Below are positions 12,357 to 32,722 of a DNA stretch of 64,000 nt, piece by piece (the first letter of the stretch is position 1; every line of letters starts with the position of its first letter). A program made the position numbers and the translations under genes. The notes under the pieces were generated by a model that was given only the letters and a program-made list of their open reading frames with translations, was not told the origin of the DNA and did no database searches. This stretch comes from Fimbriiglobus ruber (lineage in GTDB: Bacteria > Planctomycetota > Planctomycetia > Gemmatales > Gemmataceae). The stretch spans positions 248,001-312,000 of the forward strand of contig NZ_NIDE01000009.1 in assembly GCF_002197845.1 (NCBI RefSeq), given 5' to 3'.

Positions 12357-13501
12357 ATGGCCCGGTCCTTGATCGAACGGTTGGGCGAGTTAAAGGACCC
12401 GCGGGATCCGCGGGGTCTTCGCTACCCGCTGATCCCGGTCTTGGCTCTGTGCGTGGTCGGAATCCTCGCCGGGCACACGAGTTTGGCCGCCATCGCCCAG
12501 TTCGGTCGGCTCCGTAAGCACTGGCTCGGGCACGCCCTCGGATTTCGGAGCGGGCGGATTCCGGCGGCCACCACCTTGTCCCTGGTCCTGCGAGCCCTGG
12601 ATGCCGACGACCTCGACCGGATCATCGGGGCGTGGTTGGCCGACCGTCACGCCGACGGGTGGGACCACATCGCCCTGGACGGCAAGACGCTCCGGGGTCA
12701 CGCGAGGGGCGGTTCCGGGCGTTCACCTGCTGGCCGCCTACGCCCCCCAGGCGTCGGCCGTGATCGCCCAGTTGCGGGTCGACGCAACGACGAACGAACA
12801 CAAGGCGGCGTTGCGGTTGCTGGGTGTGTTGCCACCCCTGAAGGGGGCCGTGGTGACGGCCGACGCGATGTTCACCCACCGGGAAGTGTGCGAACAGGTG
12901 CTGGCGAACGGCGGGGACTACATCCTGTACGCGAAGGACAATCAGACGACCCTAGAGCGGGATCTGCGGGACCTCTTCGCGGCAGCCGAACTCGGCTGCC
13001 TTCCCCCCCCTCCAGCTGCGGTTATGAGCGGAGAATACGCAGACGGTCACCACCCGCAACAAGGGGCACGGGCGGATCGAGGTGCGGACGCTGACGACCA
13101 CGACGTGGTTGAACGACGACCTCGACTGGCCGCACGTCGGCCAAGTGTTCCGACTCGAGCGGGAGCGGCGAACCGGGGGCCAGAAGACGATCGAGGTGGT
13201 GTATGGGATCACCAGTCTGTCGCGGGACGAGGCGGACGCGGGCCGGTTGTTGGACTTCAACCGGGCTCATTGGGGCATTGAGAACGGTCTGCATTACACC
13301 CGGGATGAGACGTTGCGGGAAGATCGCTGCCAGGTGCGGAAGGGGAATGCCCAGCGGGTATTGGCGTCGTTGCGGAACGTGGCCGTCTACCTGCTACGGG
13401 GGATGGGCGGTTCGAGCGCGGCCGCCGTGACCCGCGAACTATCTGCCCACCCCCGGAAAGCTCTCGACCTCCTCCACGCTCCAAGTTCGACTTCTGAGTA
13501 G
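12357..13501 (+). pseudogene. Decayed ISAs1-family transposase
   Basis: An H-repeat/ISAs1-like transposase in three frames. Frame one (from ATG 12357) encodes the associated N-terminal domain (LKDPRDPRGLRYPLIPVLAL) and DGKTLRG. Near 12700-12714 one extra base shifts it to VPGVHLLAAYAPQ and VVTADAMFTHRE. In the C8 run near 13010 a second extra base leads to the C-terminal part (GHGRIEVRTL, HWGIENGLHYTRDET, NAQRVLASLRNVAVYLLRG). In addition a TGA stop lies at 13025-13027 in the last frame. With two frameshifts and one stop it is not functional. No convincing terminal inverted repeats were found. Confidence 0.8.
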
Positions 13502-14249
13502 CCCTGGCGGCAGTGAAGACCCACCTAAAAACCGCCGATCGATCCATCCTGTAACAGTCAAGAATGAGCCAATCGGAATTCCTTGGAGTCACCTTATGGC
13601 CCGAGTTCCACAACACTCGCTGAATCGGTGACCCACCGATAGCCAGTCGATCTGATTTCGTACTCGGTTCGGATGCGAGGTCAACAGCCGGAGCCACTCG
13701 CTGGCGGCCCGAAGATCAACCGCTGCTTCGAGCAACTCGGCTTTTCTGTCGCCAAGGATTGGAGCGAGGCGCCTCCACGCGCTTTGGTCTCGTAGTCGGC
13801 TGTCGTCGAGCAAGTGCCCGAATTGTCTGCAGCCGAGGACTGGGAACTGCTCCGACTGCGCCAACTACGAGAGCGTAGCCGGTCACTGGTTTACAATGGT
13901 AATTCTGCAAAACCCTGGTCCGAGTAGGGAGTTCCGGTGTCTAATGCGCGACCATCGGCTCCTGTACCTCCGACCGGGCTGCGTCGTGGCTTTGACACTC
14001 GCCGATTTTGGTTCGATTCTCGGAGAATCGTTGGCCTAGCCATCCCTTTTCCCGCCGATCGGTGGCCGGGAGCACGGGGCAAAGTTCACAGAGGCATGGA
14101 CTTACACTTGTCATATCATTGGAATCTTTCCTTAAATCTCTCTCTTGAACCGGTAACCGACCGAGGTTTTTTCCATTTTGATCCAGCAATTTGGACTTCA
14201 GTGGCATTTCTGTTAATAAAGGCACGGGAATCCGGGTCACAGGTCGCGA
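13502..14249. other. Gene-poor gap before first sigma module
   Basis: About 750 nt with no convincing gene. A - strand open frame at 13589-13864 (91 codons, containing ILGDRKAELLEAAVDL and SEWLRLLTSHP) reads like protein but I recognise no family, and it could be a remnant. The last ~90 nt (14160-14249) resemble the region just upstream of the second sigma gene (22254-22342) and so belong to the duplicated module, probably its promoter and leader. Confidence 0.5.
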
Positions 14250-15968
14250 ATGAGTCACTCTCTCATCGATTTTCTCCGCACGGCCGGCGGGCCATCGCCC
14301 GACCGGGCGGAGGCACTATGGGTGCGCTACCGTGAGACCGACGACGAAGCCGCTTTCACAACCCTCGTAGGGTGGTACGGAAGCGGCATCTACCGCAGGA
14401 TTCTGATCGCCACCGGGTTCGACCACCTGTTGGCCGAAGAGGTCTTTCAGACCACGTTGTTTAAACTCCACGAGCGGAGAAAGGTTCTCGCCTGTCCGAC
14501 TTTTACGGCGGCCCTGGCGTGGTGGCGGGTGACGGCCCGTAACGAAGTTCAGATGGCCCTGCGGGGCCGGCGGCGAGCCCGAGCCAGGGAGGAGCGGGTC
14601 GCCCGAAATCCCGCAATCGACGCCACCCCGGGCGCCGAGACCGAAGTTCTTCGGGCCGAATTGCTCACCGAACTCGGGACCGCGTTCAGCCGCCTCCGCC
14701 CCGAACACCGAGAAACCCTCTCACTGCTCTATTTTGAAAATCTTCCCGTATCCCGAGCGGCCGCGATTCTCGGCCGCAATCGGGAAACTGTCTCCCGGTG
14801 GGCCGAGCAGGGGTTGAGCTGCCTCCGCGATTTGCTCGCCGCGCGGGGCGTTTTGTCGGCGGCCGGAGGAGTGGCAGCCGCCCGACTTGTCTTGACCGAT
14901 GCGGTCCAGGCGGCAGTGCCAACCGTCCGGATCGCAGAATTTGCAACCGCGGCTTGGACTGCGAAGCCTGCGGGTACCTCGTTTCTGGCTGCCGGGTGGG
15001 TCAAAAAGGTCGCGGGTGTGCTTGGCGTGGTGGCTTTTGGGTGCGTTGTGGCCATTGGATGGCAGCTCGAACGAAGCGAGCCCCCGGCGCCCTCGCTCCC
15101 TAATCCTCCCGCCGCCCGAGCCGAGGACATCCCGCAGCGGAATTTGCATCTGTTCCACTTGGTGGTTACACCACGGATCCGAGCGGCACTCGCCGATCTG
15201 CTGACAGGCGACGGTGATGTGGTGCTTGAAGCGGTAGAGACATACGATACGCGGATTTTTTGTACGTTCAGCTTCAAGCATAAACTCCCTACCCCGCTGA
15301 CCTGGGTGCCACGGGTCCGGTTCATCTACGAAGCTCATGGACAGACGTTTCAGAGTAGCTTCGATCTCCACGAATGGGAGTACGATACTCCGGAATTCAA
15401 TCCGATCTTTATCCCCGAAAGCGAGGGTCGGATTTGGGATCGGCAAACGTTCTTGGAAATCGACCGACGCCGGCCGGACCTACCCAAAGGTGCGAGGCCT
15501 CGGTGGCGCAACCCGACGACCGAACGGACGTGGCCGGTCGACTCGATCCGAGGTGTCCTCACGCGCGTCGAGTCCGCGTTCCGGCTGATCCCGGCCGACC
15601 GGGAGACGGCGGCAGAAAAGGCGGCGACCGACGACCGGTTGAAAGCGGCGATCCGGCCCCACCTGGGGATATGGTACGGGCGGGGGCGACAGGATTTGCC
15701 GTGCGAACTTTCGGACAGCCCGGACGGACTCGTCTTGAAGCGCGGGTACAACTGGTCGCGGACCGTCAAAAAGGTACCGGCACCGGCGGTTTGCGGGAAC
15801 TGGTGGGTGCGCGTTCGGTCGGATGGCGCGCCGTCCGGACTGTTCACATGGGGGTTGACGGTCCGGTTCTCGCCGGACGGCCGGCGGATCAATTTCCCCG
15901 AGAGTGGCGACTGGTGGACGCGCGAGCCGATCCCCGAGCCCCAGAAGCAACGCCCCGACAAACCTTGA
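14250..15968 (+). CDS. Membrane-anchored ECF sigma factor with C-terminal sensor-like domain (copy 1)
   Basis: 572 aa, about three times the length of an ordinary ECF sigma factor. Residues 35-105 fit sigma region 2 (EAAFTTLVGWYG, EEVFQTTLFKLHER) and 135-195 fit region 4 (LRPEHRETLSLLYFENL, helix-turn-helix around AAILGRNRETVSRW). Residues 200-250 are an Ala-rich linker, 252-272 a single hydrophobic segment (VLGVVAFGCVVAIGW), and 295-572 a domain I cannot assign (RNLHLFH, TPLTWVPRVRFIYE, GIWYGRGRQDLPCE, SGDWWTREP). Expected topology: sigma domains in the cytoplasm, unknown domain outside. No anti-sigma gene is adjacent, so regulation may lie within the protein. It is followed after 147 nt by SP4. 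A paralogue is at 22343-24058. Confidence 0.88.
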   Translation: MSHSLIDFLRTAGGPSPDRAEALWVRYRETDDEAAFTTLVGWYGSGIYRRILIATGFDHLLAEEVFQTTLFKLHERRKVLACPTFTAALAWWRVTARNEVQMALRGRRRARAREERVARNPAIDATPGAETEVLRAELLTELGTAFSRLRPEHRETLSLLYFENLPVSRAAAILGRNRETVSRWAEQGLSCLRDLLAARGVLSAAGGVAAARLVLTDAVQAAVPTVRIAEFATAAWTAKPAGTSFLAAGWVKKVAGVLGVVAFGCVVAIGWQLERSEPPAPSLPNPPAARAEDIPQRNLHLFHLVVTPRIRAALADLLTGDGDVVLEAVETYDTRIFCTFSFKHKLPTPLTWVPRVRFIYEAHGQTFQSSFDLHEWEYDTPEFNPIFIPESEGRIWDRQTFLEIDRRRPDLPKGARPRWRNPTTERTWPVDSIRGVLTRVESAFRLIPADRETAAEKAATDDRLKAAIRPHLGIWYGRGRQDLPCELSDSPDGLVLKRGYNWSRTVKKVPAPAVCGNWWVRVRSDGAPSGLFTWGLTVRFSPDGRRINFPESGDWWTREPIPEPQKQRPDKP

Positions 15969-16115
15969 CGATTTACTGGGATAGGGAGCGGAAAAACTGT
16001 TCGTCCCTTGGCAGTCCGGAAGCGTGCCTCCGCAGTAACCCGGTAAGCGGGCGCGTCCGGCCCGATGCGCCAACGAGAGTATCGGGGCACACATCATTAA
16101 TTCCAGGAAGACATT
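15969..16115 (+). promoter_or_regulatory. Conserved 147-nt spacer between sigma gene 1 and SP4
   Basis: This spacer and the one at 24059-24205 have exactly the same length and are mostly identical, including TACTGGGATAGGGAGCGGAA, CTCCGCAGTAACCCGGTAAG and CAGGAAGAC just before the start codon. CCGC and GCGG in the central block can pair. AGGAAG (16105-16110) is the ribosome-binding site, 5 nt from ATG 16116. Conservation of a non-coding stretch between two otherwise divergent downstream genes suggests a promoter or leader, but it could also just reflect recent duplication. Confidence 0.6.
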
Positions 16116-19100
16116 ATGTTTTCGCTTCTAACCAATTGGATGAGCGGTCCGAGAAAAAATACAACCCGGCGCCAAAAGTCTCATCGTTTCAGGCCCATTG
16201 TTGAAAGACTCGACGATCGATTGGCGCCGGCCGCACCGGCGGTGTCAGCGATCAGTCCGTCGTCCGGGCCGGCCGCCGGGGGGACGACGGTCACCATCAC
16301 CGGGTCGAACCTGTTGGGTGGTGGTACGACGACGCTCGACCAACCGGGGTATGCGTCGACTTATCTCAGCGGAGTTAGCGGGGGCGATGTGGTCGGGTAC
16401 TCTCAATCCAGTAGTGGGACTATCACTGGGTTCAAGTATGACGGATCGACATTCACCTCGATCAACGACCCGAACGGTTCGAGCACCGATCCAATTGGCG
16501 TCAATGGAAACACGATCGTTGGACTCTATACGGCACCAGGCGGTCTGCTGGGACAGAGTCGGGGGTTCGAAGATGTCGGGGGGGTGTTCACGGATGTGGC
16601 CGACCCAGCGGGTACGGGGACCACGCCGCGTGGCGTCAGTGGGAACACGATCATCGGGTATTACATCAACTCGTCCGGCGTCGAGGTCGGTTTCGATGAT
16701 GTCGGCGGAACATACATCGATATCATCGACCCGACTCCCGGTGTGAAAGGAACTTTCCCGCTCGGTATCAGCGGCACTACTGTGGTCGGGTATTACAAAG
16801 ATTCCAGCAACCACCAACATGGCTTCATTTTCGACGGGCACACATACACCACCGTCGACGACCCTGACCCGGCGGCCAACTACGGCACCGTTTTGACCGG
16901 GATCAGCGGGGGCAATTACGTCGGGTACTATCTGTCCGAGGCCCAAAACGGCACGATCAGCAACGGCGCTTTAGCGTACAACGGGTCGACGTTCACTGAT
17001 TTGACATTCCCGATTGTTGATCTCCAGATCAGCGCCCAGGCTTCCAGCGTGAGCGATCAGCTTGTGGTTGGGAATTATACTAGTTTAAATTCCGTGACGC
17101 ACGGCTTTATCCTCGGACAGAACGTCAGCTTTGGGTCGGTCGTCGGCACCATCGTCAGCGATAACGGTTCGCAGATCGTGGCGACAGCCCCGGCAGGCAC
17201 GGCTGGAGCGTCGGTGGACGTGACGATGGCGACGACCGCCGGATTATCGACTCCGTCCGCAACCGACAAGTATACGTATGTGGCCACCGTTCCAGAAGTC
17301 ACTAGCATCAGCCCAAGTTCCGGCACAGTCGCAGGAGGAACTACCGTCACCATCACCGGGACCAACCTCGGCGGTGCCACGGCCGTCACTTTCGGCGGGA
17401 CGGCTGCCACCATTCTCTCCGACTCGGCCACCCAACTGGTTGTCACGGACCCGGCTGGCGCGGCGGGGACAGTGGATGTCGTCGTGACCACCTCCGGAGG
17501 CACCTCGCAGGCCGAGACGGCTGACAAGTTCACCTACCAGTCCGCCGCTCCGTACGTCACGTCCATCAACCCTTCGGTTGGCCCGACCGCCGGGGGAACG
17601 ACCGTGACACTTACTGGGACCGGCTTGGCCGGAGCCACCGCAGTGACGTTCGGCGGGACGTCCGCCACCATCGTCAGTGACTCGGCCAGCCAGATCGTCG
17701 TCACGACGCCGCCTGGGGCGGCCGGGATCGCCGATGTCCTTGTCACCACCTCGGCCGGGACTTCGGCCGGTTCACCCGCGTACGCCTTCGTTTACACGGC
17801 CCCTACTGGTCCGACCGTGGCCAGCGTCAGCCCGAGTTCGGGGCCGGCGGCCGGCGGAACCACCATCACGATTGCCGGGACCAACCTCGGCGGTGCCACG
17901 GCCGTCACTTTCGGCGGGACGACTGCCACCATTCTCTCCGACTCGGCCACCCAGCTGGTTGTCACGGACCCGGCTGGCGCAACGGGAACAGTGGATGTCG
18001 TCGTGACCACCCAGGCCGGTTCATCGCAGACGGGGGCAACCGACAAGTTCACTTATCAAGCCCCACTTCCGGTCGTGACCGGGGTCAGTCCGGGGAGTGG
18101 GCCGGCCACCGGCGGAATTACCGTAACCCTGACCGGAACCGACCTCGACGCGGCGACCACTGTAGACTTTAACAGCACACCGGCCACCATCGTGAGCGGC
18201 ACCGCAACCCAGCTCGTCGTTACCGTTCCGGCGGGGACGGCCGGGAATGCGGCTTACGTTACGGTCACAACCCCGGCCGGGACTTCGGCCGTGACCTCAG
18301 CTGATTACTTTACATATACCGCCCCAGCTCCCGTCATCACGGGGGTCAGCCCAAGTCTTGGTACCGCGGGGACGACGGTAACAGTCACCGGGCTCTATCT
18401 GAACGGGGCGGTGGGTGTCCAGTTCGGCGCCCTGGGAAATTTGGGTACGGCGACCATTCTCAGTGACACGGCGACTCAAATCGTGGTCACCGCCCCGACC
18501 GAGTCGCCGGGAACGGTGGACATCCGGGTCGAAAACTCCCTCGCCATCTCGGCCGTCACTCAGGCTGATCAGTACACCTATGCGGGGGTTCCCAACGTGA
18601 CGGTGGTCAGTCCAGCAAATGGGCCGGCATCCGGGGGAAATAGTGTCACCCTCACCGGGACCGATTTGGGAGGTGCCTCGGCCGTCTACTTCGGCGGCAC
18701 CCCCGGCACGATTGTCAGTGACTCGGCCACACAACTCGTCGCCACAGCCCCAGCCGGGACGGCTGGGTCCGGTCTGTTCGTGACCGTGACGACTCCGGGC
18801 GGCACGTCGGGGGATTTCGCGTCGGCGATGTACACCTACCAGACGGCCACGTCCCCACCCGCTCCGGCCCCGACCGTGACGGGAATTAGCCCGTCGTCCG
18901 GGTCGACGGTCGGCGGAACCCTTGTGACCATCGCCGGGACGGGTCTGGGGAACGCCACGGCCGTGGCGTTCGGCGGGACGGCCGGGACGATCGTGTCCGA
19001 CTCGGCCACCCAGATCGTGGCCGCCGCACCGGCCGGGGCCGCCGGGACAGTGTTTGTGACCGTGACTACCCCGGGCGGCACGTCGGGGGACCTCGCGGCA

Positions 19101-22058
19101 GCGGCGTACACCTACCAGACGGCAACTTCTCCTCCCGCCCCGGCCCCGACGGTGACGGGTATCAGCCCGTCGTTCGGGTCCACGGCCGGCGGGATTCTGG
19201 TCACGATCACCGGGACGGATCTGGGGAACGCCACGGCCGTGGCGTTCGGTGGGATCGGTGGGACGATCGTGTCCGACAACGCCACCCAAGTCGTGGCCAT
19301 CGCCCCGGCCGGAACGGCGGGGCCGGTGGACGTAACCGTGTTCACCGCAGCCGGCACGTCTGCGACCGGGCCCAACCAATTCACGTACGTCAGCCCGCCG
19401 CCGGCCGCTCCGAGCGTGACGGGCATCAGCCCGTCGTCCGGGTCGACGGCCGGCGGAACCCTAGTGACCATCATCGGGACGGACTTGGGGAACGCCACCG
19501 CCGTCGCGTTCGGCGGGATCGGCGGGACGATCGTGTCTGACAGCGCCACCCAGATCATGGCCACCGCACCGGCCGGGGCGGCGGGGGCAGTAAATGTGAC
19601 CGTGTTTACCGCAGCCGGTACGTCGGCGACCGGGCCCGACCCATTCACGTACGTCAGCCCGCCACCGATGGCCCCGACGGTGGCGGGGATCAGCCCATCG
19701 TCCGGGTCGACGGTCGGCGGAACCCTTGTGACCATCGCCGGGACGGGTCTGGGGAACGCCACGGCCGTGGCGTTCGGCGGGACGGCCGGGACGATCGTGT
19801 CCGACTCGGCCACCCAGATCGTGGCCGCCGCACCGGCCGGGGCCGCCGGGACAGTGTTTGTGACCGTGACTACCCCGGGCGGCACGTCGGGGGACCTCGC
19901 GGCAGCGGCGTACACCTACCAGACGGCAACTTCTCCTCCCGCCCCGGCCCCGACGGTGACGGGTATCAGCCCGTCGTTCGGGTCCACGGCCGGCGGGATT
20001 CTGGTCACGATCACCGGGACGGATCTGGGGAACGCCACGGCCGTGGCGTTCGGTGGGATCGGTGGGACGATCGTGTCCGACAACGCCACCCAAGTCGTGG
20101 CCATCGCCCCGGCCGGAACGGCGGGGCCGGTGGACGTAACCGTGTTCACCGCAGCCGGCACGTCTGCGACCGGGCCCAACCAATTCACGTACGTCAGCCC
20201 GCCGCCGGCCGCTCCGAGCGTGACGGGCATCAGCCCGTCGTCCGGGTCGACGGCCGGCGGAACCCTAGTGACCATCATCGGGACGGACTTGGGGAACGCC
20301 ACCGCCGTCGCGTTCGGCGGGATCGGCGGGACGATCGTGTCTGACAGCGCCACCCAGATCATGGCCACCGCACCGGCCGGGGCGGCGGGGGCAGTAAATG
20401 TGACCGTGTTTACCGCAGCCGGTACGTCGGCGACCGGGCTCGACCCATTCACGTACGTCAGCCCGCCACCGACGGCCCCGACGGTGGCGGGGGTTAGTCC
20501 ATCGTCCGGGTCCGCGGCGGGCGGAACCCTCGTGACGATCACCGGGGCGGGTCTGGCGAACGCCACGGCCGTCGCGTTCGGGGGGACGGCCGGGACGATC
20601 GTGAGTGACACGCTTACCCAGATCGTGGCCACCGCCCCGGCCGGTGTAGCCGGAACCGTAGACGTCGCCGTGACGACCGCTGGCGGCACCTCCGCGACCA
20701 GCACCGCCGACCAGTTCACGTATCTCATTATGGTCAGCCCGCCGCCGCCCGCCCCGGCCGTGACGGGGATCAGCCCGTCGTCCGGACCCACGGCAGGCGG
20801 AACCCTCGTGACGATCACTGGGTCGGGACTGGCGAACGCCACGGTCGTCGCGTTCGGGGGGGCGGCCGGCACGATCGTGAGCGACACTGCTACCCAGATT
20901 GTAGCCGCCGCCCCAGCCGGGGCGACGGGTACGGTGGACGTGGCTGTGTTCACCGCTGGCGGCACCTCGGCCGCCTCGACCGCCGACCACTTCACGTACA
21001 CTGCTCCCCCGGTCTCACGACCGCCGTCTTCCGTCCTCGTCGGTGCCTCCCAATTCGCCGTCGGGGCCGACGCCGGCGGGGTCCCGCTCGTCGAGTCGTT
21101 CAACGCCAATCAGACCCCGGTCCTCGGGGCGACGTCCGCGTTCGCGTCGTCGTTCACCGGCGGGGCCCGGGTCGTGGCCGCCGACTTCAACAACGACGGG
21201 GTCGCTGACATCGCCGTCGGGACCGGCCCGGGGGGCCCGAACGAGGTGACTATCCTGGACGGCAAGACGGGGGCCGTGATCACCACCTTCCAGCCGTTCG
21301 AGGCCTCGTTCACCGGGGGCATCTTCGTGGCCGCCGGGGACATCACCGGGGACGGCATCCCGGACCTGATCGTGACCCCCGACCAGACCGGCGGACCGGT
21401 CGTCGCCGTGTACGACGGGACCAAACTGGTCGAGGGCCTGGCGTCCGGTCAGCCCAACGGCCAGCCGGCCCAGATCAACCGCTTCTTCGGGATCCAGGAC
21501 CCGAACTTCCGGGGCGGGGCGCGGGCCGCCGCCGGCGACATCAACGGGGACGGGGTGGCCGACATCGTGGTCTCGGCCGGGTTCAGCGGAGGCCCGCGGA
21601 TCGCCGGGTTCGACGGGAAATCGGTCGCGTCCGGTGTGGCCGACCCGACCAAGCTGTTCGCCGACTTCTTCGCGTTCGAGCCGTCCCTGACGAATGGGGC
21701 GTACGTGGCCGTCGGAGACATCAACGGGGACGGGCACGCTGACGTGATCGCCGGCGGCGGACCGGGTGGCGGACCGCGGGTGACCGTATTCGACGGGGCG
21801 GCTCTCCTGTCGAACACCCAGACGCCGGTCGCCGACTTCTTCGCCGGGGACCCGAGCAACCGCGGGGGGGTGCGGGTGGCTGTCAAGGACCTGGACGGGA
21901 CCGCGGACGCGGGTCTGGTGGTCGGGTCGGGGACCGGAGCTGGGGCGACCGTCACCGGGTACACTGGGAAGGCGATCCTGGCCGACCCGGGGTCGCCCAC
22001 ATCTTTGTTCTCGCTCGACGCCTTCCCCGGATTTACCGGCGGCGTCTTTGTCGGGTAA
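16116..22058 (+). CDS. SP4, giant TIG/IPT-repeat surface protein with HAF insert and FG-GAP end
   Basis: 1980 aa, intact. ATG 16116 has AGGAAG 5 nt upstream. LDDRLAP is at residues 32-38. A TIG/IPT domain starts (AISPSSGPAAGGTTVTITG) but breaks off near residue 68. About 265 residues of HAF-type repeats follow (VVGYSQSSSG, GNTIVGLYTAPGG, TTVVGYYKDSSNHQHGF), and the same TIG domain resumes at VSFGSVVGTIVSDNGSQIVA. Fourteen more TIG/IPT domains follow (about 85 residues each). Then comes the FG-GAP/VCBS propeller (from about nt 21030; DFNNDGVADI, DITGDGIPDL, DINGDGVADI, DINGDGHADV), ending PGFTGGVFVG. An 804-bp internal duplication spans three TIG domains. The first ~10 residues equal those of SP5. 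Likely extracellular stalk-and-propeller protein controlled with the upstream sigma gene (inference). Confidence 0.9.
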   Translation: MFSLLTNWMSGPRKNTTRRQKSHRFRPIVERLDDRLAPAAPAVSAISPSSGPAAGGTTVTITGSNLLGGGTTTLDQPGYASTYLSGVSGGDVVGYSQSSSGTITGFKYDGSTFTSINDPNGSSTDPIGVNGNTIVGLYTAPGGLLGQSRGFEDVGGVFTDVADPAGTGTTPRGVSGNTIIGYYINSSGVEVGFDDVGGTYIDIIDPTPGVKGTFPLGISGTTVVGYYKDSSNHQHGFIFDGHTYTTVDDPDPAANYGTVLTGISGGNYVGYYLSEAQNGTISNGALAYNGSTFTDLTFPIVDLQISAQASSVSDQLVVGNYTSLNSVTHGFILGQNVSFGSVVGTIVSDNGSQIVATAPAGTAGASVDVTMATTAGLSTPSATDKYTYVATVPEVTSISPSSGTVAGGTTVTITGTNLGGATAVTFGGTAATILSDSATQLVVTDPAGAAGTVDVVVTTSGGTSQAETADKFTYQSAAPYVTSINPSVGPTAGGTTVTLTGTGLAGATAVTFGGTSATIVSDSASQIVVTTPPGAAGIADVLVTTSAGTSAGSPAYAFVYTAPTGPTVASVSPSSGPAAGGTTITIAGTNLGGATAVTFGGTTATILSDSATQLVVTDPAGATGTVDVVVTTQAGSSQTGATDKFTYQAPLPVVTGVSPGSGPATGGITVTLTGTDLDAATTVDFNSTPATIVSGTATQLVVTVPAGTAGNAAYVTVTTPAGTSAVTSADYFTYTAPAPVITGVSPSLGTAGTTVTVTGLYLNGAVGVQFGALGNLGTATILSDTATQIVVTAPTESPGTVDIRVENSLAISAVTQADQYTYAGVPNVTVVSPANGPASGGNSVTLTGTDLGGASAVYFGGTPGTIVSDSATQLVATAPAGTAGSGLFVTVTTPGGTSGDFASAMYTYQTATSPPAPAPTVTGISPSSGSTVGGTLVTIAGTGLGNATAVAFGGTAGTIVSDSATQIVAAAPAGAAGTVFVTVTTPGGTSGDLAAAAYTYQTATSPPAPAPTVTGISPSFGSTAGGILVTITGTDLGNATAVAFGGIGGTIVSDNATQVVAIAPAGTAGPVDVTVFTAAGTSATGPNQFTYVSPPPAAPSVTGISPSSGSTAGGTLVTIIGTDLGNATAVAFGGIGGTIVSDSATQIMATAPAGAAGAVNVTVFTAAGTSATGPDPFTYVSPPPMAPTVAGISPSSGSTVGGTLVTIAGTGLGNATAVAFGGTAGTIVSDSATQIVAAAPAGAAGTVFVTVTTPGGTSGDLAAAAYTYQTATSPPAPAPTVTGISPSFGSTAGGILVTITGTDLGNATAVAFGGIGGTIVSDNATQVVAIAPAGTAGPVDVTVFTAAGTSATGPNQFTYVSPPPAAPSVTGISPSSGSTAGGTLVTIIGTDLGNATAVAFGGIGGTIVSDSATQIMATAPAGAAGAVNVTVFTAAGTSATGLDPFTYVSPPPTAPTVAGVSPSSGSAAGGTLVTITGAGLANATAVAFGGTAGTIVSDTLTQIVATAPAGVAGTVDVAVTTAGGTSATSTADQFTYLIMVSPPPPAPAVTGISPSSGPTAGGTLVTITGSGLANATVVAFGGAAGTIVSDTATQIVAAAPAGATGTVDVAVFTAGGTSAASTADHFTYTAPPVSRPPSSVLVGASQFAVGADAGGVPLVESFNANQTPVLGATSAFASSFTGGARVVAADFNNDGVADIAVGTGPGGPNEVTILDGKTGAVITTFQPFEASFTGGIFVAAGDITGDGIPDLIVTPDQTGGPVVAVYDGTKLVEGLASGQPNGQPAQINRFFGIQDPNFRGGARAAAGDINGDGVADIVVSAGFSGGPRIAGFDGKSVASGVADPTKLFADFFAFEPSLTNGAYVAVGDINGDGHADVIAGGGPGGGPRVTVFDGAALLSNTQTPVADFFAGDPSNRGGVRVAVKDLDGTADAGLVVGSGTGAGATVTGYTGKAILADPGSPTSLFSLDAFPGFTGGVFVG
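18897..20504 (+). repeat. 804-bp tandem duplication inside SP4
   Basis: Sequence from 18897 recurs from 19701 with an offset of exactly 804 bp (268 codons, three TIG/IPT domains) and very few differences (for example CGGGCCCGACC versus CGGGCTCGACC). The near-identity shows a recent in-frame duplication. Confidence 0.88.
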
Positions 22059-22123
22059 AGCGAAGGAAAAGCACTCGGAACAAATAGCTGGTTCTCCCCG
22101 GAAGCACCCGTCTTTTCCTCCCC

Positions 22124-22150
22124 AGCGGCCGACTTTATGTCGGCAACGCT
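22124..22150. terminator. Stem-loop after SP4
   Basis: GCCGAC (22128-22133) pairs with GTCGGC (22139-22144) around TTTAT, extended by AGCG/CGCT with an AA bulge. It lies 66 nt after the SP4 stop. A weak T-containing stretch precedes rather than follows it, so termination is likely but not certain. Confidence 0.45.
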
Positions 22151-22291
22151 TGAGCCCGTACATTTATATTCTGGATAATGACAGATTAAAAAGTGGCAAG
22201 TCTCGAACGTTCCTTGAGACGCACTGCTTGGGTTGCTAACTGCGCAGGGGTGTACCGGCCGAGGATTTATTTTTATTTCGATCCGGCAAAT

Positions 22292-22316
22292 GGAACGCCG
22301 GCGGCATTTTATTGTC
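22292..22316 (+). promoter_or_regulatory. Candidate ECF-type promoter of sigma gene 2
   Basis: GGAAC (22292-22296) is followed after 17 nt by GTC (22314-22316), the spacing of a typical ECF promoter (GGAAC-N16/17-GTC), 27 nt before the ATG at 22343. The matching place upstream of copy 1 reads GGACT with a poorer -10, so the signal is not strictly conserved. If real it would suggest autoregulation; the short leader makes this tentative. Confidence 0.3.
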
Positions 22317-22342
22317 GGAAAGCCCGGACTTCTGGATCCCGC

Positions 22343-24058
22343 ATGAGTCATTCCCTCATCGATTTTCTCCGTACGGCTGGCGGACCATCGCCGGACCGGG
22401 CTGACGTGTTATGGGCTCGTTACCGCGACACGGGTGACGAGGACGCGTTCTCAATCCTCGTGGGATGGTACGGGAACGGCATCTACCGCCGGATTTTCAT
22501 CGCCTCCGGGTTCGATCACTCGCTGGCCGAGGAGGTCTTTCAGATCACGTTGTTCAAGTTGCACGAGCGGCGGCGGACCCTCGCCTGTCCGACGTTCGAC
22601 GCCGCGTTAGCGTGGTGGCGGGCGACAGCCGGGAATGAGGTCCGGATAACTCTCCGGGGGCGCCGGCGTGCCCGAACGCGGGAGGCCGAGGTCGCCCGGA
22701 ACCCCGCCACCGACGTTACCGCGGATGCCGAGACCGAGGTTCTTCGGGCCGAACTGCTTGCGGAACTCGGGACGGCGTTCAACCGCCTCCGCCCGGAACA
22801 ACAGGAAACCCTTGCCCTCCTCTATTTTGAAAATCTTTCCGAATCCCGGACGGCCGAGGTTCTCGGCCGGCACCGGGAGACCGTCTCCAGATGGGCCAAA
22901 CAAGGGTTAGAGCGACTTCGCGATTTGCTCGCGGCCCGGGGGGTGTTGTCGGCCGCCGGGGGGGCGTCGGCGGCCGAGGTCGTCCTGACCGACGCGGCCC
23001 GGGCTGCGACGCTGCCCGCGGCCCGGATCGCGGACATGATGGCCGCGGCTTGGACTGCGAATCCCGCGGGCGCGCCGCTTGCGGCCGCCGGGTGGGCGAA
23101 AAAGATCGTCGTCGTGTCCATGGCGGCGGTGGTCAGCGGCGGTGCGATCGCCGGGTGGCCGCGCGACCGACGCGAGCCCCCGCCGGCCGCAACCCCCGTC
23201 GCCGCTCAGGCCGCGAGCGTGCCGCGGCGGAATTTGCACCTGTTCCACTCGGAGGTCGTACCACGGCTCCGGGCAGCACTCGGCGGCTTCCTGACCGGCG
23301 ACGGCAACGTGACCCTCGAAAACGTCGAGGCATACGACACGAGAATCTTCTGTGCTTTTTCCTTAAATCACAAACTCCCGGTCCCACTGACGTGGGCACC
23401 ACGGGTCCGGTTCATTTACGAAACTCATGAGCAGACGTTTCAAAGCAGCTTGGACCTCCACGACTGGAACCACGACGCGCCGGAAATCAAGTGGATTTTT
23501 ATTTCCGAAAGTCCTGACCGGATCTGGGACCCGGAAACATTCCTGGAGGTCGACACCCGGCGGCCGGATCTGCCCATGTCCGCCAGACAAATGTGGTGCA
23601 ACCCGACGACCGGGCGGAGGTGGCCGGTCGATTCGATCCGTGACATCCTTGTCCAGGTCGAATCTGCATTTCGGCTAATCCCTGCCGACCAGGAAACGGC
23701 GGCGGAAAAGGCTGCGACCGACGGCCGTGTAGCGGTGGCGATCCGGCCCTACTTGGGGGTGTGGTACGGGCGGGGGCGACAGGATTTGCCGTGCGAACTC
23801 TCGGACGGCCCGGACAGACTCGTCTTGACGCGCGCGTACTACTGGTCGCGGACCGTCAAAAAGATGCCGTCACCGGCGCTTCGCGGGAACTGGTGGGTGC
23901 GCGTCCAGTCGGACGGCGCGCCGTCCGGACTGTTCACATGGGGAGTGACGGCCCGGTTCTCACCCGATCGCCGGCGGATCGATTTCCCCGAGAGCGGCGA
24001 CTGGTGGACGCGGGAGCCGCTTCCCGAGCCCCAGAAGCAACGTCCCGGCAAACCCTGA
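22343..24058 (+). CDS. Membrane-anchored ECF sigma factor with C-terminal sensor-like domain (copy 2)
   Basis: 571 aa from ATG 22343, the position equivalent to the copy 1 start (MSHSLIDFLRTAGGPSPDRA in both). A longer open frame from 22193 has no counterpart in copy 1. The architecture is the same: region 2 (EDAFSILVGWYG, EEVFQITLFKLHERR), region 4 (LRPEQQETLALLYFENL, AEVLGRHRETVSRW), Ala-rich linker, hydrophobic segment around residue 255-272 (VVVSMAAVVSGGAIAGW) and the same unassigned C-terminal domain (RNLHLFHSEV, TWAPRVRFIYE, GVWYGRGRQDLPCE). High similarity to copy 1 throughout shows a segmental duplication. It is followed after 147 nt by SP5. Confidence 0.88.
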   Translation: MSHSLIDFLRTAGGPSPDRADVLWARYRDTGDEDAFSILVGWYGNGIYRRIFIASGFDHSLAEEVFQITLFKLHERRRTLACPTFDAALAWWRATAGNEVRITLRGRRRARTREAEVARNPATDVTADAETEVLRAELLAELGTAFNRLRPEQQETLALLYFENLSESRTAEVLGRHRETVSRWAKQGLERLRDLLAARGVLSAAGGASAAEVVLTDAARAATLPAARIADMMAAAWTANPAGAPLAAAGWAKKIVVVSMAAVVSGGAIAGWPRDRREPPPAATPVAAQAASVPRRNLHLFHSEVVPRLRAALGGFLTGDGNVTLENVEAYDTRIFCAFSLNHKLPVPLTWAPRVRFIYETHEQTFQSSLDLHDWNHDAPEIKWIFISESPDRIWDPETFLEVDTRRPDLPMSARQMWCNPTTGRRWPVDSIRDILVQVESAFRLIPADQETAAEKAATDGRVAVAIRPYLGVWYGRGRQDLPCELSDGPDRLVLTRAYYWSRTVKKMPSPALRGNWWVRVQSDGAPSGLFTWGVTARFSPDRRRIDFPESGDWWTREPLPEPQKQRPGKP

Positions 24059-24205
24059 CGAACTACTGGGATAGGGAGCGGAAAAACTGTTCGCCCCTTG
24101 GCAGTTCGAAGATGTGCCTCCGCAGTAACCCGGTAAGCGGGCGCGCCCGGCTTGGTGTACTAACGAGAGTATCAAGACACGTGTCGTTAACTCCAGGAAG
24201 ACGTT
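24059..24205 (+). promoter_or_regulatory. Conserved 147-nt spacer between sigma gene 2 and SP5
   Basis: Near-copy of 15969-16115 with the same length, the same GGGATAGGGAGCGGAAAAAC block, the same CAGTAACCCGGTAAGCGGGC block and the same AGGAAG ribosome-binding site (24195-24200) 5 nt from ATG 24206. Differences cluster around 24137-24185. Candidate promoter/leader region of SP5. Confidence 0.6.
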
Positions 24206-25981
24206 ATGTTTTCGCTTTTAACCAGCTGGATGTCCCGTCCGAAATCCGGCACGATGCGGCGATTCGGGTCGGCTAATAATGTCGACCGCCGCCGGTCGAC
24301 AGTCCCCGTGTCGCTGGGCGTCTTGGAACTGGACAGCCGCATCGTTCCCGCCGCCACCGTGCAATTCAATACCGGCAGCGAAACCGTTGCCGCGACCGCC
24401 GGGACGTTCAGCATCCCGGTTACGCTCTCGGGGGCTCCATCGCCGACCGTCACGACCTTCGCGTCCGGGTTTACGGGACCCGAGGGTGTTGCGTTCGATG
24501 CGGCCGGTAATCTATACGTGGCCGACACCTTTGCCGATACGGTGGATAAGGTGACGCCGGGCGGGGTGGTCAGCACGTTCGCATCCGGGATTACGGCGCC
24601 CGAGGCTCTGGCGTTTAATGCGGCCGGGAACCTGTACGTCACCGGCGACGGAGTTCTCAGCGTTGGTGCGGTATACCAGGTGACGCCGGGCGGGGTGATC
24701 AGCACGTTCGCGTCCGGGTTTGCGGAATCAGCCGGGAACCCACCCAGGGGGTTGGCGTTCGATGCGGCCGGGAACCTGTACGTGGCCGACACTTTTGCCG
24801 GTCGGGTCGATAAGGTGACGCCGGGCGGGGTGGTCAGCACGTTCGCGTCCGGATTTCCTGACCCCGCCGGCCTGGCGTTCGATGCGGCCGGGAACTTGTA
24901 CGTGGCCGATGGCACCGCCAACAGGGTAGATAAGGTGACCCCGAACGGAGTGGTCAGCACGTTTACCTCCGGGGTCAACAGCCCGTACGGTCTGGCGATC
25001 GACGCCGGCGGCGACCTCTACGTGACTGCTTACGATCCGGGCAGCACGGGCGCCGACTTGGTGGACAAGGTGACACCGGGCGGGGTGGTCAGTACGTTCG
25101 CGTCCGGGTTCCTGAACGCTGCCGCTTTGGCGTTCGATGCGTCCGGGAACCTGTACGCCGCCGACTCGGCCGCCGGCACGATAAACCAAATCGGCACCGC
25201 GGTACCGATCCCGTTCACCCTCGGCGGGACGGCTGTCGCCGGGACCGATTACAGCGGCGTCACGACGAGCCCGCTGGTGTTCGCGGCCGGGCAGACGACC
25301 GCCACCATCACCGGCACCCTGGCCCCCGGGAGCGGGGGCAAGACGCTGACCATCACCCTAGTTCCGCCGACCAACGCAACCCTCGGCAGCCCTTCGACCA
25401 ACACGCTGACGATTAGTGCGGTTCCCCCGCCGCCGCCGGCGGCCCCCACTCTCACAAGTATCAGTCCCGCATCCGGCCCGACGGCCGGTGGCACCACGGT
25501 CACCATCACCGGGACCGACCTGGGCAACGCCACGGCGGTCGCGTTCGGCGGGGTGGCCGGGGCGATCGTGTCCGACACGGCCACCCAGATCGTGGCCACC
25601 GCCCCGGTTGAGTCTGCGGGTGTCGTGGACGTGACCGTGACCACCGCGGGCGGGACGTCCGTTACCTCGTCCGCCGACCAGTTCACCTACGCGATCCCTC
25701 CGACCGTTCAGTTCGTTGCCGGGAGCGAGACGACCGCGGCAGGGAGTGGGACGTTCCGTGTTCAGGTTAGCCTTTCAGCCCCGTGGACCCCGACCGTGGC
25801 TACCGTCGCGTCCGGGTTCACGAACCCGTCCGGTTTAGCGTTCGATACCGCCGGCAACTTGTACATGGCCGACGCGTCCGCGAACACGATCAGCAAAATC
25901 GTGCCGGGGGGAACCGTCACGACGTTCGCGACCGGACTCGCCGGTCCGGACGGGCTAGCGTTCGATACCGCCGGCAACCTA
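24206..25981 (+). CDS. SP5, N-terminal part, interrupted by IS630
   Basis: First 592 codons of a protein that would be about 1862 aa without the insertion element. LDSRIVP is at residues 42-48; the first residues (MFSLLT-WMS) equal SP4. Calx-beta first half (VQFNTGSETVAATAG, SIPVTLSG) is followed by NHL repeats (24446-25190: GLAFDAAGNLYVADT). The Calx-beta second half (PFTLGGTAVAGTDYSG) is at 25200-25420, and a TIG/IPT domain (SISPASGPTAGGTTVTITG) at 25440-25690. A second Calx-beta first half (VQFVAGSETTAAGSG) and a second NHL set then run into the insertion at AGNL. In the present DNA the frame continues 66 nt into the element and stops at 26047, so the product is truncated and lacks the FG-GAP cassette. 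Confidence 0.85.
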
Positions 25982-26080
25982 TTCTCGGACTCGCCTGAAG
26001 TGACACAAGTCGGCCTTGAGCAACCAGGCCTGGATAGCGGAGGATAGATCCTTCACCGATCCGTCTGCGGGAGGGCAAGG

Positions 26081-26605
26081 ATGCGTCCCCAATATTCGTT
26101 TCCCGAACCCGTGGTCCAAGCGATCGCGGACGCGCGCTATCGGCACCCGGACCCGCGTGTCCAAGAGCGGATGGAGATTCTCTGGCTCAAGACCCGGAAC
26201 GTGACGCACAGTCGGATCGCGGAGTTGGCCAACGTGTCGCGCTCCACGGTGCAGCGGACCCTGCGGATCTATGCGGCGAAGGGTCTGGATGGGGTCCGAT
26301 CGTTCGGCTGGAAGGGCCAACCCAGTGCGCTGACACCGCATCACGGGACGATCGAAGACGCGTTTCGCCGGCACCCGCCGCACACGGCCCACGAGGCGGC
26401 GCGGCGGATCGAGGACCTGACGGGCGTCCGACGCAAGGCGTCGCGGGTGCGCCAGTTCTTGAAAGAGGATCTGGGGATGAAATGCCTGAAGGTGGCACCC
26501 ATCCCGGTGCCGCCCAAGAAAACGGTCGACGAACACGCCCGCACGCAGGCGGATTTTTTAAAAGACGGAACTGGAACCGAAGTTGGCGGAAGCCCGCGAC
26601 GGTAA
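26081..26605 (+). CDS. IS630-family transposase, ORF A (DNA-binding part), copy 1
   Basis: 174 aa. N-terminal helix-turn-helix region (RIAELANVSRSTVQRTLRIY) followed by a winged-helix-like part (RRIEDLTGVRRKASRVRQFL), as in IS630 transposases split over two frames. The in-frame tail after ADFLKDG is probably not used, because the catalytic part continues in the +1 frame after a T6A4 run (26553-26562). ATG 26081 follows GGGAGGGCAAGG. Confidence 0.82.
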   Translation: MRPQYSFPEPVVQAIADARYRHPDPRVQERMEILWLKTRNVTHSRIAELANVSRSTVQRTLRIYAAKGLDGVRSFGWKGQPSALTPHHGTIEDAFRRHPPHTAHEAARRIEDLTGVRRKASRVRQFLKEDLGMKCLKVAPIPVPPKKTVDEHARTQADFLKDGTGTEVGGSPRR

Positions 26606-27149
26606 GCGGACGGTGTACTTCGTGGACGCGTCGCACTTCGTCTTGGCGTCGTTCCTGGGGTGGGTGTGGTGCTTCGTCCGGTTACATGTCCGGGCCGCGT
26701 CGGGACGGCAGAGGTACAACGTGCTGGGTGCGCTGAACGCGGTCACGCACGAGCTGGTGACAGAAATCAACACGACGTACATCACGGCCACCTCGGTGTG
26801 TGCGTTGCTCCGCAAGATCGCGGCCCTCGGTGGGTCATTGCCGATCACGCTGGTACTCGACAACGCCCGCTACCAGCGGTGCGCGCTGGTGGAGCACACG
26901 GCCAAGGCACTCGGGATCGAGTTGTTGTTCCTGCCGTCGTATTCGCCGAACCTGAACTTGATCGAGCGACTCTGGAAGTTCGTGAAGAAGGAGGCGTTGA
27001 ACAGCCGCCACCATCAGGACTTCAAGAAGTTCCAGGAGGCCATCGACCATTGCTTGGCGGATCTGCCGACGAAACACCGAGAGAAACTGGCGACCCTGAT
27101 GACCCACAAATTCCAGACGTGGGACAATGTGTCACTCCTGGACGCGTAA
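26583..27149 (+). CDS. IS630-family transposase, ORF B (DDE catalytic part), copy 1
   Basis: 188 aa with the DDE triad: D in FVDASHF, D in LVLDNARYQ and E in LIERLWKFVKKE. It overlaps ORF A in the +1 frame. In-frame sequence upstream of the ATG reads KTELEPKLAEARDG back to the T6A4 run, so a full transposase would arise by +1 (or -2) slippage at AAAA-G. Both copies have this same arrangement, which supports programmed frameshifting over mutation. Confidence 0.85.
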   Translation: MAEARDGKRTVYFVDASHFVLASFLGWVWCFVRLHVRAASGRQRYNVLGALNAVTHELVTEINTTYITATSVCALLRKIAALGGSLPITLVLDNARYQRCALVEHTAKALGIELLFLPSYSPNLNLIERLWKFVKKEALNSRHHQDFKKFQEAIDHCLADLPTKHREKLATLMTHKFQTWDNVSLLDA

Positions 27150-27155
27150 AGTATA

Positions 27156-30100
27156 TACGTGGCCAATACCGGGGACGGGACGGTCAGCCGGATCACCCCG
27201 GCGGGCGTCGTCACGACGTTCGCGACCGGGTTCACGGTTCCATCCGGCCTGGCGTTCGACGCAGCCGGCAACTTGTACGTGGCCGACTCGACCGCAAACA
27301 CCGTCAGCCGGGTCACCCCGGCGGGCATAGTCTCGACGTACGCGTCCGGGTTCAGCGCGCCCGTCGGACTGGTATTCGATGCGGCCGGCGACCTGTACGT
27401 GGTCAATGATGGTCTCGGGAACGTGAGTGAGGTGACCCCGGCGGGAGTGGTTACAACGTTCGCGTCCGGATTCGCTGGTGCTGACGGCTTGACATCCGAC
27501 GCGGCCGGAAACTTGTATGTCTCAAATTATGTGACCGGCACGGTTAACGCGGTGTCTCCGGCCGGTGTGGTCACGACTTACGCGACCGGGTTCTCCGGAC
27601 CCGTCGGCCTGGCGTTCGACGCGGCCGGTCGTTTGTACGTGGCCAACTACAAGGCCGGGACGTTGAGTATGGCTACGGCGGTAACCGCGACCGTTCCGTT
27701 CACGCTGGGCGGGACGGCCGTCGCCGGGACCGACTACAGCGGGGTGACGGCCAGCCCACTGGTGTTCGCACCCGGGCAGACGACCGCCGACATCGCCGGA
27801 ACCCTGGCGCCCGGGAGCGGGGGCCAGACGCTGACCGTGACCCTGGGGACGCCGACCAACGCAACCCTCGGAGCCACCACGACCAACACGCTGATGGTCC
27901 TGCCGCCGACGCCCGCCGTGACCGGCCTCAGCCCGTCGTCCGGGCCGACCACCGGGGGCACCACGGTCACCATAACGGGAACCAGCCTGGGCAACGCCAC
28001 GGCAGTTGCGTTCGGCGGGGTGGTCGGGGCGATCGTGTCCGACACCCCGACCCAGATCGTGGCCACCGCCCCGACCGGGACCGTGGGGACGGTCGACGCG
28101 ACCGTGACCACCGCGGGCGGAACGACCATTACCTCGGCCGCCGACCAATTCACGTACTTCGCGCTCCCCGCGAGTCCTCCCCCTGCAAGTTTGCCCCCCG
28201 CGAGTCCGCCCCCGACCAGTCAAGCCGTGTCGGCCCCGGCTGGCGGGACGGCACCCGTCAGCTTGACGGCGACCGGGGCCGATACCGGCGGGGCGCCCAT
28301 TGTGTGGGTGTATAACGCCGACGGGTCGCCGCGGTTTTCCATCATGGCTTACGATCCGACGTTTACCGGCGGGGTCCGAGTGGCCGTCGGGGACGTCAAC
28401 GGCGACGGTATCCCGGATATTATCACCGTTCCCGGGCCCGGCGGCGGACCAATCGTCAAGGTCTTCAGCGGGGTCGACGGGACGCTGCTGCAGACCTTCG
28501 CCGCACTGGACGGGAAATTCACTGGTGGTTTGTATGTGGCGGCCGGGGATTTCAATGGCGACGGGCACGCGGACATCGTGACGTCGGCCGACATCGGCGG
28601 CGGCCCCCGCGTGACGGTGTACAACGGCAGTGACGATTCCGTCATGGCCGACTTTTTCGGGATCGCCGACCCGAATTTCCGGGGCGGCGCTCGGGTCGCG
28701 GTCGGAGACATCAATTACGACGGGGTGCCCGATTTGATCGTGGCCGCCGGATTCGGCGGCGGGCCCCGCGTGACCATCTATGACGGCCGTGAGATCGCGG
28801 CGGCCGGCGGGGGTACACCCGCCGGGACTGCCCTAGCGAACTTCTTTGCGTTCGAGCAGACACTTCGGAATGGGGTTTACGTCGGGTCTGGGGATTTGAC
28901 CGACGGCGGCTTCGCCGACCTCGTCTTCGGTGCCGGCCCCGGCGGTGCCCCTCGGGTCCGGGTGATCGACGGGCAGCAGCTCCTGGCGGCGAGTAACTTT
29001 AGCGACCTGGACACGGCCGTGGCCGCCAACCCGGCGATGCAGGTAGCGAACTTCTTCGCCGGCGACCCGAGCAGCCGGGTCGGCGTTCGGGTGGGCATCG
29101 CGGACGGCAGCAGCGGGACGGCCGACATTCTAACCTCCCCCGGGACGGGCGGGGGCAGCGCTGTCAGCATGTACAACGCAGCCGGTACCGTGGTCGGTAC
29201 CGAAAACCCGTTTCCGGGGTTCACGGGCGGGTCGTTCGTGGACGGGTCCGAGGATCCGACTCAGGCTCTCTTCGCCCGGGGCACGTCGGCACCGCTCGGT
29301 CAACTCGTCATCCGCGGCCAGTTCGTAACCGGGGTTCCGACGGAGGTCGTTTTCGCGGACAATGAGGGGTACCGCGTCGTCGTTCAACCGGCGATCGTGA
29401 CCACTACCCGGGTATCGGTCGGGGTACCGGTTTACGTGAATCCGAGTACCGGCCAGGTCGGGGCGTCCGGTCCGGACCTGACGGTCTCGGTGATCCAGAC
29501 TTTCAACGGCGGGCAGGTGGTCACCGCCTCGATTCCGTACCAAATCACCGCGCCGACCCCGGTCGCCGGCACCCCGGGAACGCTGACAACGGCGTACCTG
29601 ACGGCCCTCCAGAACTTGGCTGACAACGCGATTCAGGGCGTGCAGCGCGTCGGAGCCGCCACCCCCGGGGCGGGCGGGACAGCCATCAGCGGATTGACCC
29701 AACAACTGGCGGCCGTCAAACAAACCCTGGCGACACTAGCGTCGCAGATTCAACAACTGATGTCCGGCCAAATCGCCAGCATCCCTCTCGGGACGGTGAA
29801 TGGTGCCCAGATCGTCTTGACTGTAGCCGAACTGGCACTGCTCGACGCACTCATCGGGAACCTGCTCCAGAGCGCCGGGTTTGACATCGGTGGCGATCCG
29901 AATCAGATTCTCACGAATTTGATCGCATGGTTGGAGAATGGCCAAACCAAGACGGATGGAACTGCCGGCGGCTGGTCGCCATTGCCGCTAATAACGGCCG
30001 GCCCGGCACTCGGGGGCGGCATCAACGTAAGCAAGAACGGGGCCGAAGGGGCCGCCGCGATTGTCGACAACGCATCTGTACCCATCGGGGATGCGGCCGA

Positions 30101-30968: not shown

Positions 30969-31278
30969 CTAGGTATATAATCTGATGGTTCATGAGCCCG
31001 GAGAGGCGCCGAGGGCTTTTCTCCCGAGCAGCACTCGCAAGCATGGTCGGCACGTCCGATTTGAGATTGTAGGCCCATTGAAAGGTGGCCGCATACTGCT
31101 TGAGTAGGGTGAAGTCTCTCTGGCGCCGTGAAACGCCGGGGTTTTTGGTCTTCGGGCTCGGGAAACAAGCCGCGAGTCCCTTTTTCGCCCCGGCGCCGAT
31201 CTCTGTTTGTGCTTGAAAAGGTGCGGCGTTCCGACTCTCGTTGGGTTTACTACGACTCCTCGAGCGAAGGAACGCCGC
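30969..31278. other. Gap between SP5 and ISKra4 remnant
   Basis: No convincing complete gene. On the - strand, a frame ending at 30961 reads RRQRDFTLLKQYAATFQWAY and then DVPTMLASAAREKSPRRL. This looks like the C-terminal end of a protein whose upstream part is lost at the ISKra4 remnant; I do not recognise the family. No clear terminator is visible for SP5. Confidence 0.35.
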
Positions 31279-32722
31279 ATGTCCCTTTCTATCCCCCTGA
31301 CCCTCGTCATGGCCACCTGTGCGGCCTCCTCCGACGCCGATGCGCCCGGCCACCCGGACCGAACCCTCGACGATGTGTGGGCCGCGTCCGGGGAACAACT
31401 CCGGGCTCTCGTCGATTCCTTCCTGACGGAGCCCGTCACCCCGGCACGGACCCTTTAGTTCGAACACGATGTCCAGATCGTGGTCCGCGAGTTGGGCCGA
31501 CAGGTCGTCCAATTCCGCTACGACCGCGTCGAACCCGCCGCGGTCGCCGATCACCCCAAATCCGCCCACTTCGAACGCGAGCGGTACACCCGGGGCTACG
31601 CAAAAACCCCACAGAACGTCTGGACTCTGTTCGGCCAGATTCGCGTCGGGCGGGTCGGCTACCGGCCGTCCCAGGCGGGCGAGCCGATGCTCTTCCCGTT
31701 GGCCCACCGACTCGGGTTGGTCCACGGGGCGAGTCCGGCCCTGGCCGCCCGGGCGTGCCAGTTCCTGGCCGAGGCTGGGTCCAACCAGCAGCGGGTTATG
31801 GACCGTCTGCGGACGGACCACGGGGTCGGTTGAGGGGTCAAGAAATTGCGGCAGGTGAGCCGAGCCGTGTCGGACGAGATGGCCGAATACCGGCACGACG
31901 CCAGGTCGACCAACTCCTGACCTGGGTGGCCGCAGCCGGGGCCTCAAATGGCCGCCACAAGCCGGTCGTGTGCGTCGGTCGGGACGGGATCACCCTCCGC
32001 CTGCGGACGACACGCGGGAGTCTGTACGAGGTGGCCAGCACGGGCACGATCAGTGTGTACGACCGCCGTGGGACGCGGCTGGGGACGGGGTACCTGGCGT
32101 ACACGCCCGAACCCGGTCAACCCACGATGAGTGGGGCGTTGACGGCCGTCATCCGCGACGTCCTCACCCGGTGGGATGGCCCGCTACGCCGGTTGTGCTA
32201 TGTGACCGACGCCGGGGACAACGAGAGGGGGTACAACGACCGCGTCCTCCGGAGGTTGACACACCCGCGGACCGAGGCCGCAATCGAATAGGTCCGGGTG
32301 GTCGATTAATACCACACGAGCGAGCGAGTGTGGACGCTGGCGAACGTGTTGTTCGGCGACGGCCCGCGAGCCGCGGATTGGGCGAAGACGATGTTGAAAT
32401 GGCTCCTCCAACCGGGGGGGTGAACCGGGTCTTGCACTCGGCCGCGGCGTTCCAGACCGCCCGAACGTGGACCCGGGGCCAGAAGACGGAGTACGACCGC
32501 GTGTACGCCTACCTGCGGAATCGGATGGGTCACATGGAGTACGCGACGTACCGACGAGTGGGTGTACCGTTGGGCAGTGTAGTGACCGAGGCGGCGTGCA
32601 AGACGGTATCCACCCAGCGGTTGAGGCTCAGTGGGATGCGATGGACGAAGAAGGCGGTGCAGACGATCTTGAACCTGCGGGTGGTCCTCTTGAGTTTGAC
32701 TGGGGTGTGGGTGGTCGTGTAA
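31279..32722 (+). pseudogene. Decayed ISKra4-type transposase
   Basis: Starts MSLSIPLTLVMATC. Frame one has a TAG at 31456-31458 (TL-stop-FEHDVQIVVRELGRQ), then VVQFRYDRVEP and FGQIRVGRVGYR, then a TGA at 31831-31833 where GVGWGVKK would be expected. One missing C near 31900 moves it to VDQLLTWVAAAG, HKPVVCVGRDGITL and LCYVTDAGDNERGY, with further stops at 32289-32291 and 32313-32315. A last missing base near 32420 gives VNRVLHSAAAFQ, GQKTEYDRVYAYLRNRMGHM and GSGMRWTKKAVQ-like sequence. Four stops and two frameshifts make it non-functional. Confidence 0.75.

Follow-up and report, generated by a model that had tools for sequence, protein, structure and literature searches.

Two sigma genes with a predicted membrane-spanning extension

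The window, by which we mean the whole 64,000-nt stretch of DNA analyzed, carries on its forward strand two related modules, each composed of an ECF sigma gene, a leader of 147 nt and a giant surface-protein gene. Sigma gene A (14250-15968, 572 aa) and sigma gene B (22343-24058, 571 aa) encode the same fusion of an ECF sigma domain, a transmembrane (TM) segment and an outer region, recognized from the sequence, from ECF signatures and, for A, from hydropathy. The two proteins are 73% identical over their full length, and coordinates and identity alike bear out the original prediction of two sigma ORFs with a common design. TIGR02937 scores 47.7 and 49.8 bits in sigma A and B (cutoff 42.9), and Pfam Sigma70_r4 is found with E values of 1e-6 to 1e-7, with Sigma70_r4 or r4_2 above cutoff, while region 2 is weak by Pfam. 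Regions 2 and 4 are present and regions 1 and 3 are lacking, the composition by which ECF sigma factors are defined. The TM segment predicted in sigma A (15006-15068, about residues 253-273) gives a hydropathy peak of 2.07 and corresponds to a single hydrophobic segment near residues 251-273, whose position is common to sigma A, to sigma B, to a third copy (C) described below and to five homologues examined. Lying after region 4 and before a further outer domain, it marks both proteins, judging by sequence, as ECFs with a membrane-spanning C-terminal extension of predicted topology.

The linker of 56 aa leading from sigma region 4 to the TM segment had no match in a Pfam search, a result compatible with a highly diverged or minimal anti-sigma domain. 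Beside the modules no anti-sigma gene was seen in the list of ORFs and their translations, in agreement with the claim that the system has no separate anti-sigma factor. A Pfam search of the extensions of A, B and two homologues from other genomes (G115a and G034) gave no match to WD40. On the minus strand of the window, at 52131-55396, a further ECF-like gene adjoins a protein with a zinc-finger-regulator-like start; this pair is unrelated to the modules.

Surface genes and a third copy of the module

Surface gene A (16116-22058) encodes a protein of 1980 aa with an LDDR motif, 15 TIG domains and FG-GAP repeats. Surface gene B (24206-30968), with NHL, TIG and FG-GAP repeats, is split by an insertion carrying the two ORFs of an IS630-type transposase (26081-27149), which leaves flanking pieces at 24206-26047 and 27159-30968. 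A giant surface gene does follow each sigma gene, but that of B is not intact. ORFs similar to the IS630-type transposase occur in the same genome also at L091 and L111. Downstream of surface gene B, positions 31107-32730 share 75% identity over 1.6 kb with L054:1670-3278, about 9 kb 3′ of copy C, and the reading frames of this segment seem broken and transposase-like. A DDE_Tnp_1-associated transposase fragment (12357-13094) lies between a surface gene and sigma A, and two LEDR surface genes are split over overlapping frames (145-1071/1068-4079 and 8379-9140/9137-11860), reflecting a frameshift or a sequencing error. The 3′ ends of giant surface genes on different contigs (21023-22062 and L053:6230-7269) are 92% identical over 1,040 nt and their middles differ, as if C-terminal modules of the surface proteins were recombining between contigs.

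A third sigma gene is found on another contig (G000:C5:390158) of the 12.36-Mb Gemmataceae genome that holds the window. Sigma C shows 70% identity over residues 1-276 and is divergent thereafter; its outer part is shorter and bears a weak resemblance to a bacterial Ig domain (Big_1, E 0.002). The sigma gene is followed by a leader with 79% identity to leader A over 135 nt, and then by a surface gene reduced to a 33-codon remnant that begins MFPLLTSWMVS. Sigma gene, leader and surface-gene start have therefore travelled together, while outer domain and surface gene were altered or lost. Since sigma C is intact, the sigma gene can evidently persist without its neighbor, and because C groups with B in the ECF-domain tree (86/73), its different outer domain was most likely acquired later, in place of the original one.

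The outer region

The outer region had been taken for one domain of about 275 residues, a description that has to be given up in favor of two domains. An N-domain (15129-15644, about residues 294-465), for which we obtained a weak cystatin/NTF2-like model, is common to all homologues, and is followed by a variable distal domain, in sigma A the outer C-domain (15645-15929, about residues 466-560), with a weak lipocalin-like barrel model. The distal domain is short in A, B, G068, G114a, G087 and G039, and a longer replacement is found in G034, G115 and G114b. An AlphaFold model of the outer region is of modest quality (mean pLDDT 64.9), and the best VIA-align Z values are 7.4 for 181-275 and 5.5 for 8-90, every fold match staying below Z 8. 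The models suggest a cystatin/NTF2-like N-domain and a lipocalin-like barrel as the distal domain, and the matches may reflect common arrangements only. Pfam searches of the outer region gave nothing convincing, and an enzyme signature was not found. The outer domain is under purifying selection between A and B (dN 0.14, dS 0.80).

The leader

Leader A (15969-16115) and leader B (24059-24205) are both 147 nt long and 84% identical, with the homology continuing into the surface-gene start MFSLLT-WMS, as originally described. The leaders of A, B and C can be aligned without gaps over 113 columns, and all of them retain a hairpin of 8 bp (16061-16068/16079-16086 in A, 24151-24158/24169-24176 in B) that includes two compensatory pairs, an outcome equalled by 31 of 4000 column shuffles. 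RNAalifold, applied to the same leaders, returned an unfavorable covariation term and a different fold and did not favor the hairpin. In A and B, the 5′ end of the leader is able to pair with the Shine-Dalgarno region.

The identity between A and B is uneven, reaching 88-91% over about 15650-16050 as against 60-85% through most of the sigma gene. Likewise, dS is 0.27 in this tract (residues 471-572), 1.36 for residues 300-470 and 0.88-1.36 elsewhere. The tract of about 400 nt, which comprises the 3′-terminal part of the sigma gene together with the beginning of the leader, fits gene conversion between A and B. Given such conversion, the equal length of 147 nt is no strong sign of selection, and for the same reason conservation of the leader relative to synonymous sites was not used as proof of function.

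Rfam searches with the leader and with the window gave no match that reached the gathering score. A covariance model of the leader, run against 95 genomes of the family, recovered the three copies of this genome only, and a search of plasmids returned one 37-nt match, attributable to chance. The idea of a similar spacer at homologous loci is therefore not sustained: among the genomes searched the leader is confined to this one, and at the G039 locus the gap between sigma and surface gene is just 5 nt. This excludes the leader as a conserved component of the system; it may instead be a local regulatory RNA.

An element upstream of the sigma genes

Sigma genes A, B and C are each preceded, within 33-64 nt of the start codon, by the sequence GCAAW-N11-YGGCATTT (14186-14209 for A, 22286-22309 for B), which has only four sites in the 12.36-Mb genome; in the same genome, the reversed pattern has one site and a pattern with wrong spacing two. 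In copies B and C the element overlaps an ECF-like TGGAAC-N16-TGTC, which comes near the usual ECF promoter pattern of a -35 AAC and a -10 CGT (PMC8103513). Copy A has lost the TGGAAC box and is without clear boxes. The fourth site (L053:13841-13864) lies about 240 nt after leader C and before a 52-codon lipoprotein-like ORF (MKRLLTILAALTIHLLSGCD), possibly a further target. As the three sigma-gene sites are related by descent, the fourth alone is partly independent. No copy of the element was found within the leader; as the one conserved upstream element, it lies before the sigma gene, which speaks for one operon rather than for a promoter in the spacer. The simplest reading is that the element would serve as an autoregulated promoter ahead of a sigma-surface operon.

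Homologues, their neighbors and the ECF-domain tree

We searched 95 genomes of the family and 397 of the class with a profile of the outer region. Homologues turned out to be rare and confined to Gemmatales, with two each in G068, G114 and G115 and one each in G087 and G039, the last belonging to another family of the order; a homologue in G034 was found with the full protein. All of them have the outer region attached to a TM segment and, provided that the contig extends far enough, to an ECF domain as well (the contig of G114b starts just before the TM segment, so that the sigma part falls outside it); every homologue with enough sequence has the fusion. One match, in G022, was rejected because it falls within the reading frame of a MurQ/GlcNAc-kinase-like protein. 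Searches with the sigma alignment found none in viral contigs or in genome contigs, and a scan of genome contigs with the N-domain recovered three already-known loci in Gemmataceae MAGs.

In three of the nine outside loci the next gene on the same strand is a LEDR giant surface gene, at a distance of 68 nt in G034, 93 nt in G114a and 5 nt in G039, where sigma and surface gene are, given this gap, almost surely one transcript. Another five (G087, G115a, G114b, G115b, G068b) are followed by some other apparently exported protein, a PEP-CTERM protein in G115b and, in the remaining four, one with an apparent signal peptide judged by eye; the next gene in G068a encodes a non-LEDR membrane protein. 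A LEDR gene therefore does not always follow. Among 29 further ECF loci in the genome of the window, called with a simple gene caller and scored for LEDR neighbors, none has a LEDR gene next, compared with four of ten loci carrying the fusion when the lineage of the window is counted once (Fisher probability near 0.003). An adjacent same-strand gene for a surface or exported protein is thus kept across genera, as would characterize a dedicated sigma/surface-gene operon. A secreted protein encoded on the minus strand 3′ of one G068 homologue (L065:3-1586) looks MACPF-type by eye and has no match in Pfam.

In a tree of ECF domains, A, B, C, G034, G115a, G068a, G068b and G114a come together (95/80, 96/90), with a comparison set of 23 other ECF-TM proteins of the same genome on the other side. 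G087 and G039, both on long branches, fall outside this main clade. By this tree, most carriers have ECF domains belonging to a clade of their own.

A probable membrane-bound sensor-sigma and its candidate target gene

We regard it as somewhat better than an even chance (roughly 0.55) that the module is a single-protein sensor-sigma at the membrane, forming an operon with the surface gene that it targets. We infer a topology in which the ECF sigma domain, tethered to the membrane by the TM segment of the same protein, would face the cytoplasm, and the outer region, with the N-domain next to the membrane and the variable distal domain beyond, would sense a ligand or monitor the cell-surface state. 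A signal would then free or expose the sigma domain, most likely through regulated proteolysis at the membrane, by analogy with IutY; M50 proteases occur in this genome and also in every one of 14 control genomes. The freed sigma factor would recognize the promoter upstream of its own gene and co-transcribe that gene with the one for the surface or exported protein behind it, and in this genome the additional structured leader may adjust how well the surface gene is translated. What survives of the dedicated sensor-sigma/surface-protein system first proposed is the fusion, the clade and the LEDR neighbor in G034, G114 and G039 as opposed to the control loci; an invariable LEDR partner and a conserved leader do not. 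Points against the operon reading are that copy A is without clear TGGAAC/TGTC boxes, the G068a neighbor is non-LEDR, the surface gene of copy C is gone, no anti-sigma-like domain is recognized in the linker, and G087 and G039 stand outside the main clade.

Some of the same observations could be explained by a sigma factor that runs a wider regulon, with the surface gene a mere neighbor acquired by duplication within surface-gene arrays and by recombination. The copies do sit within arrays of LEDR genes, surface-gene 3′ ends seem to be exchanged between contigs, sigma C has been kept without a surface gene, and the fourth site of the upstream element lies ahead of a small lipoprotein-like ORF. 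However, G034, G114 and G039 repeat the arrangement with a LEDR gene without sharing the leader, and this arrangement is missing from all the control loci. We hold this explanation to be unlikely, though a serious one. Less probable still is that the outer domain acts as a structural or enzymatic module that assists in exporting or mounting the surface protein, sigma activity being tied to assembly: the downstream genes nearly always encode exported proteins, and the lipocalin-like barrels that the distal domain weakly resembles include the inhibitor U-Omp19 (Z 6.4), but all fold matches are low, Pfam offers nothing convincing and an enzyme signature is missing. That the leader is a separate regulated promoter or a riboswitch, controlling the surface gene independently of sigma, is very improbable, since the hairpin shared by the three copies and the Shine-Dalgarno pairing in A and B are set against the lack of an Rfam match, the confinement of the leader to this genome, the RNAalifold result and an A-B identity owed in part to gene conversion.

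Returning to the sensor-sigma operon, a bolder generalization can be put forward only tentatively, and we think it rather less likely than not to hold in full: that this is a new clade of membrane-anchored ECFs in which the outer sensor may be exchanged between copies while sigma, leader and surface-gene start are kept, such that each giant surface protein would have its own sensor-sigma and need no separate anti-sigma factor.

Comparison with known systems

Planctomycetes possess very many ECFs with long extensions, and regulation by these extensions was described as barely characterized in a 2021 review (PMC8103513). Against this background, the present group is a small clade with an obvious candidate target, the adjoining giant surface or exported gene conserved across genera, which opens to direct experiment both the signal and the targets of a membrane-anchored planctomycete sigma factor, as well as the control of giant surface proteins.

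ECFs carrying a membrane-spanning extension have been described before, among them IutY, ECF52, ECF48 and ECF53 (PMC8999054). IutY of Pseudomonas putida (ECF243), a sigma-anti-sigma fusion activated by Prc/RseP proteolysis, likewise unites ECF domain, TM segment and outer part in one protein and belongs to a cell-surface signalling system (PMC8999054). It differs in having an anti-sigma part and in serving siderophore uptake, whereas no such part is recognized here and the outer domain has no Pfam family. The actinobacterial ECF52 (SCO4117), ECF48 and ECF53 also arrange ECF, TM segment and outer sensor in one chain (PMC8999054; PMC5826349), but with a zinc-finger anti-sigma domain before the TM segment, where the linker of the present proteins is without a Pfam match.

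In planctomycetes, ECFs with WD40 extensions are common, and some ECFs were found in detergent-soluble fractions of Tuwongella (PMC8567305); in this genome, ECFs with WD40, CarboxypepD_reg, peptidase or DUF1559 extensions are common as well. The ECF57-like WD40 type shares the general plan of a long C-terminal extension with the sigma factors described here, which are set apart by a separate ECF clade, another outer domain and adjoining genes for surface or exported proteins. In the SigI/RsgI system of Clostridium thermocellum, genes for surface (cellulosome) enzymes are under the control of a transmembrane protein whose outer domain acts as sensor (PMC12203970); there sigma and sensor are two proteins, whereas here they are one. 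The clade and the outer domain are new, as are the exchange of that domain for another in copy C and the conserved neighborhood of surface or exported genes.
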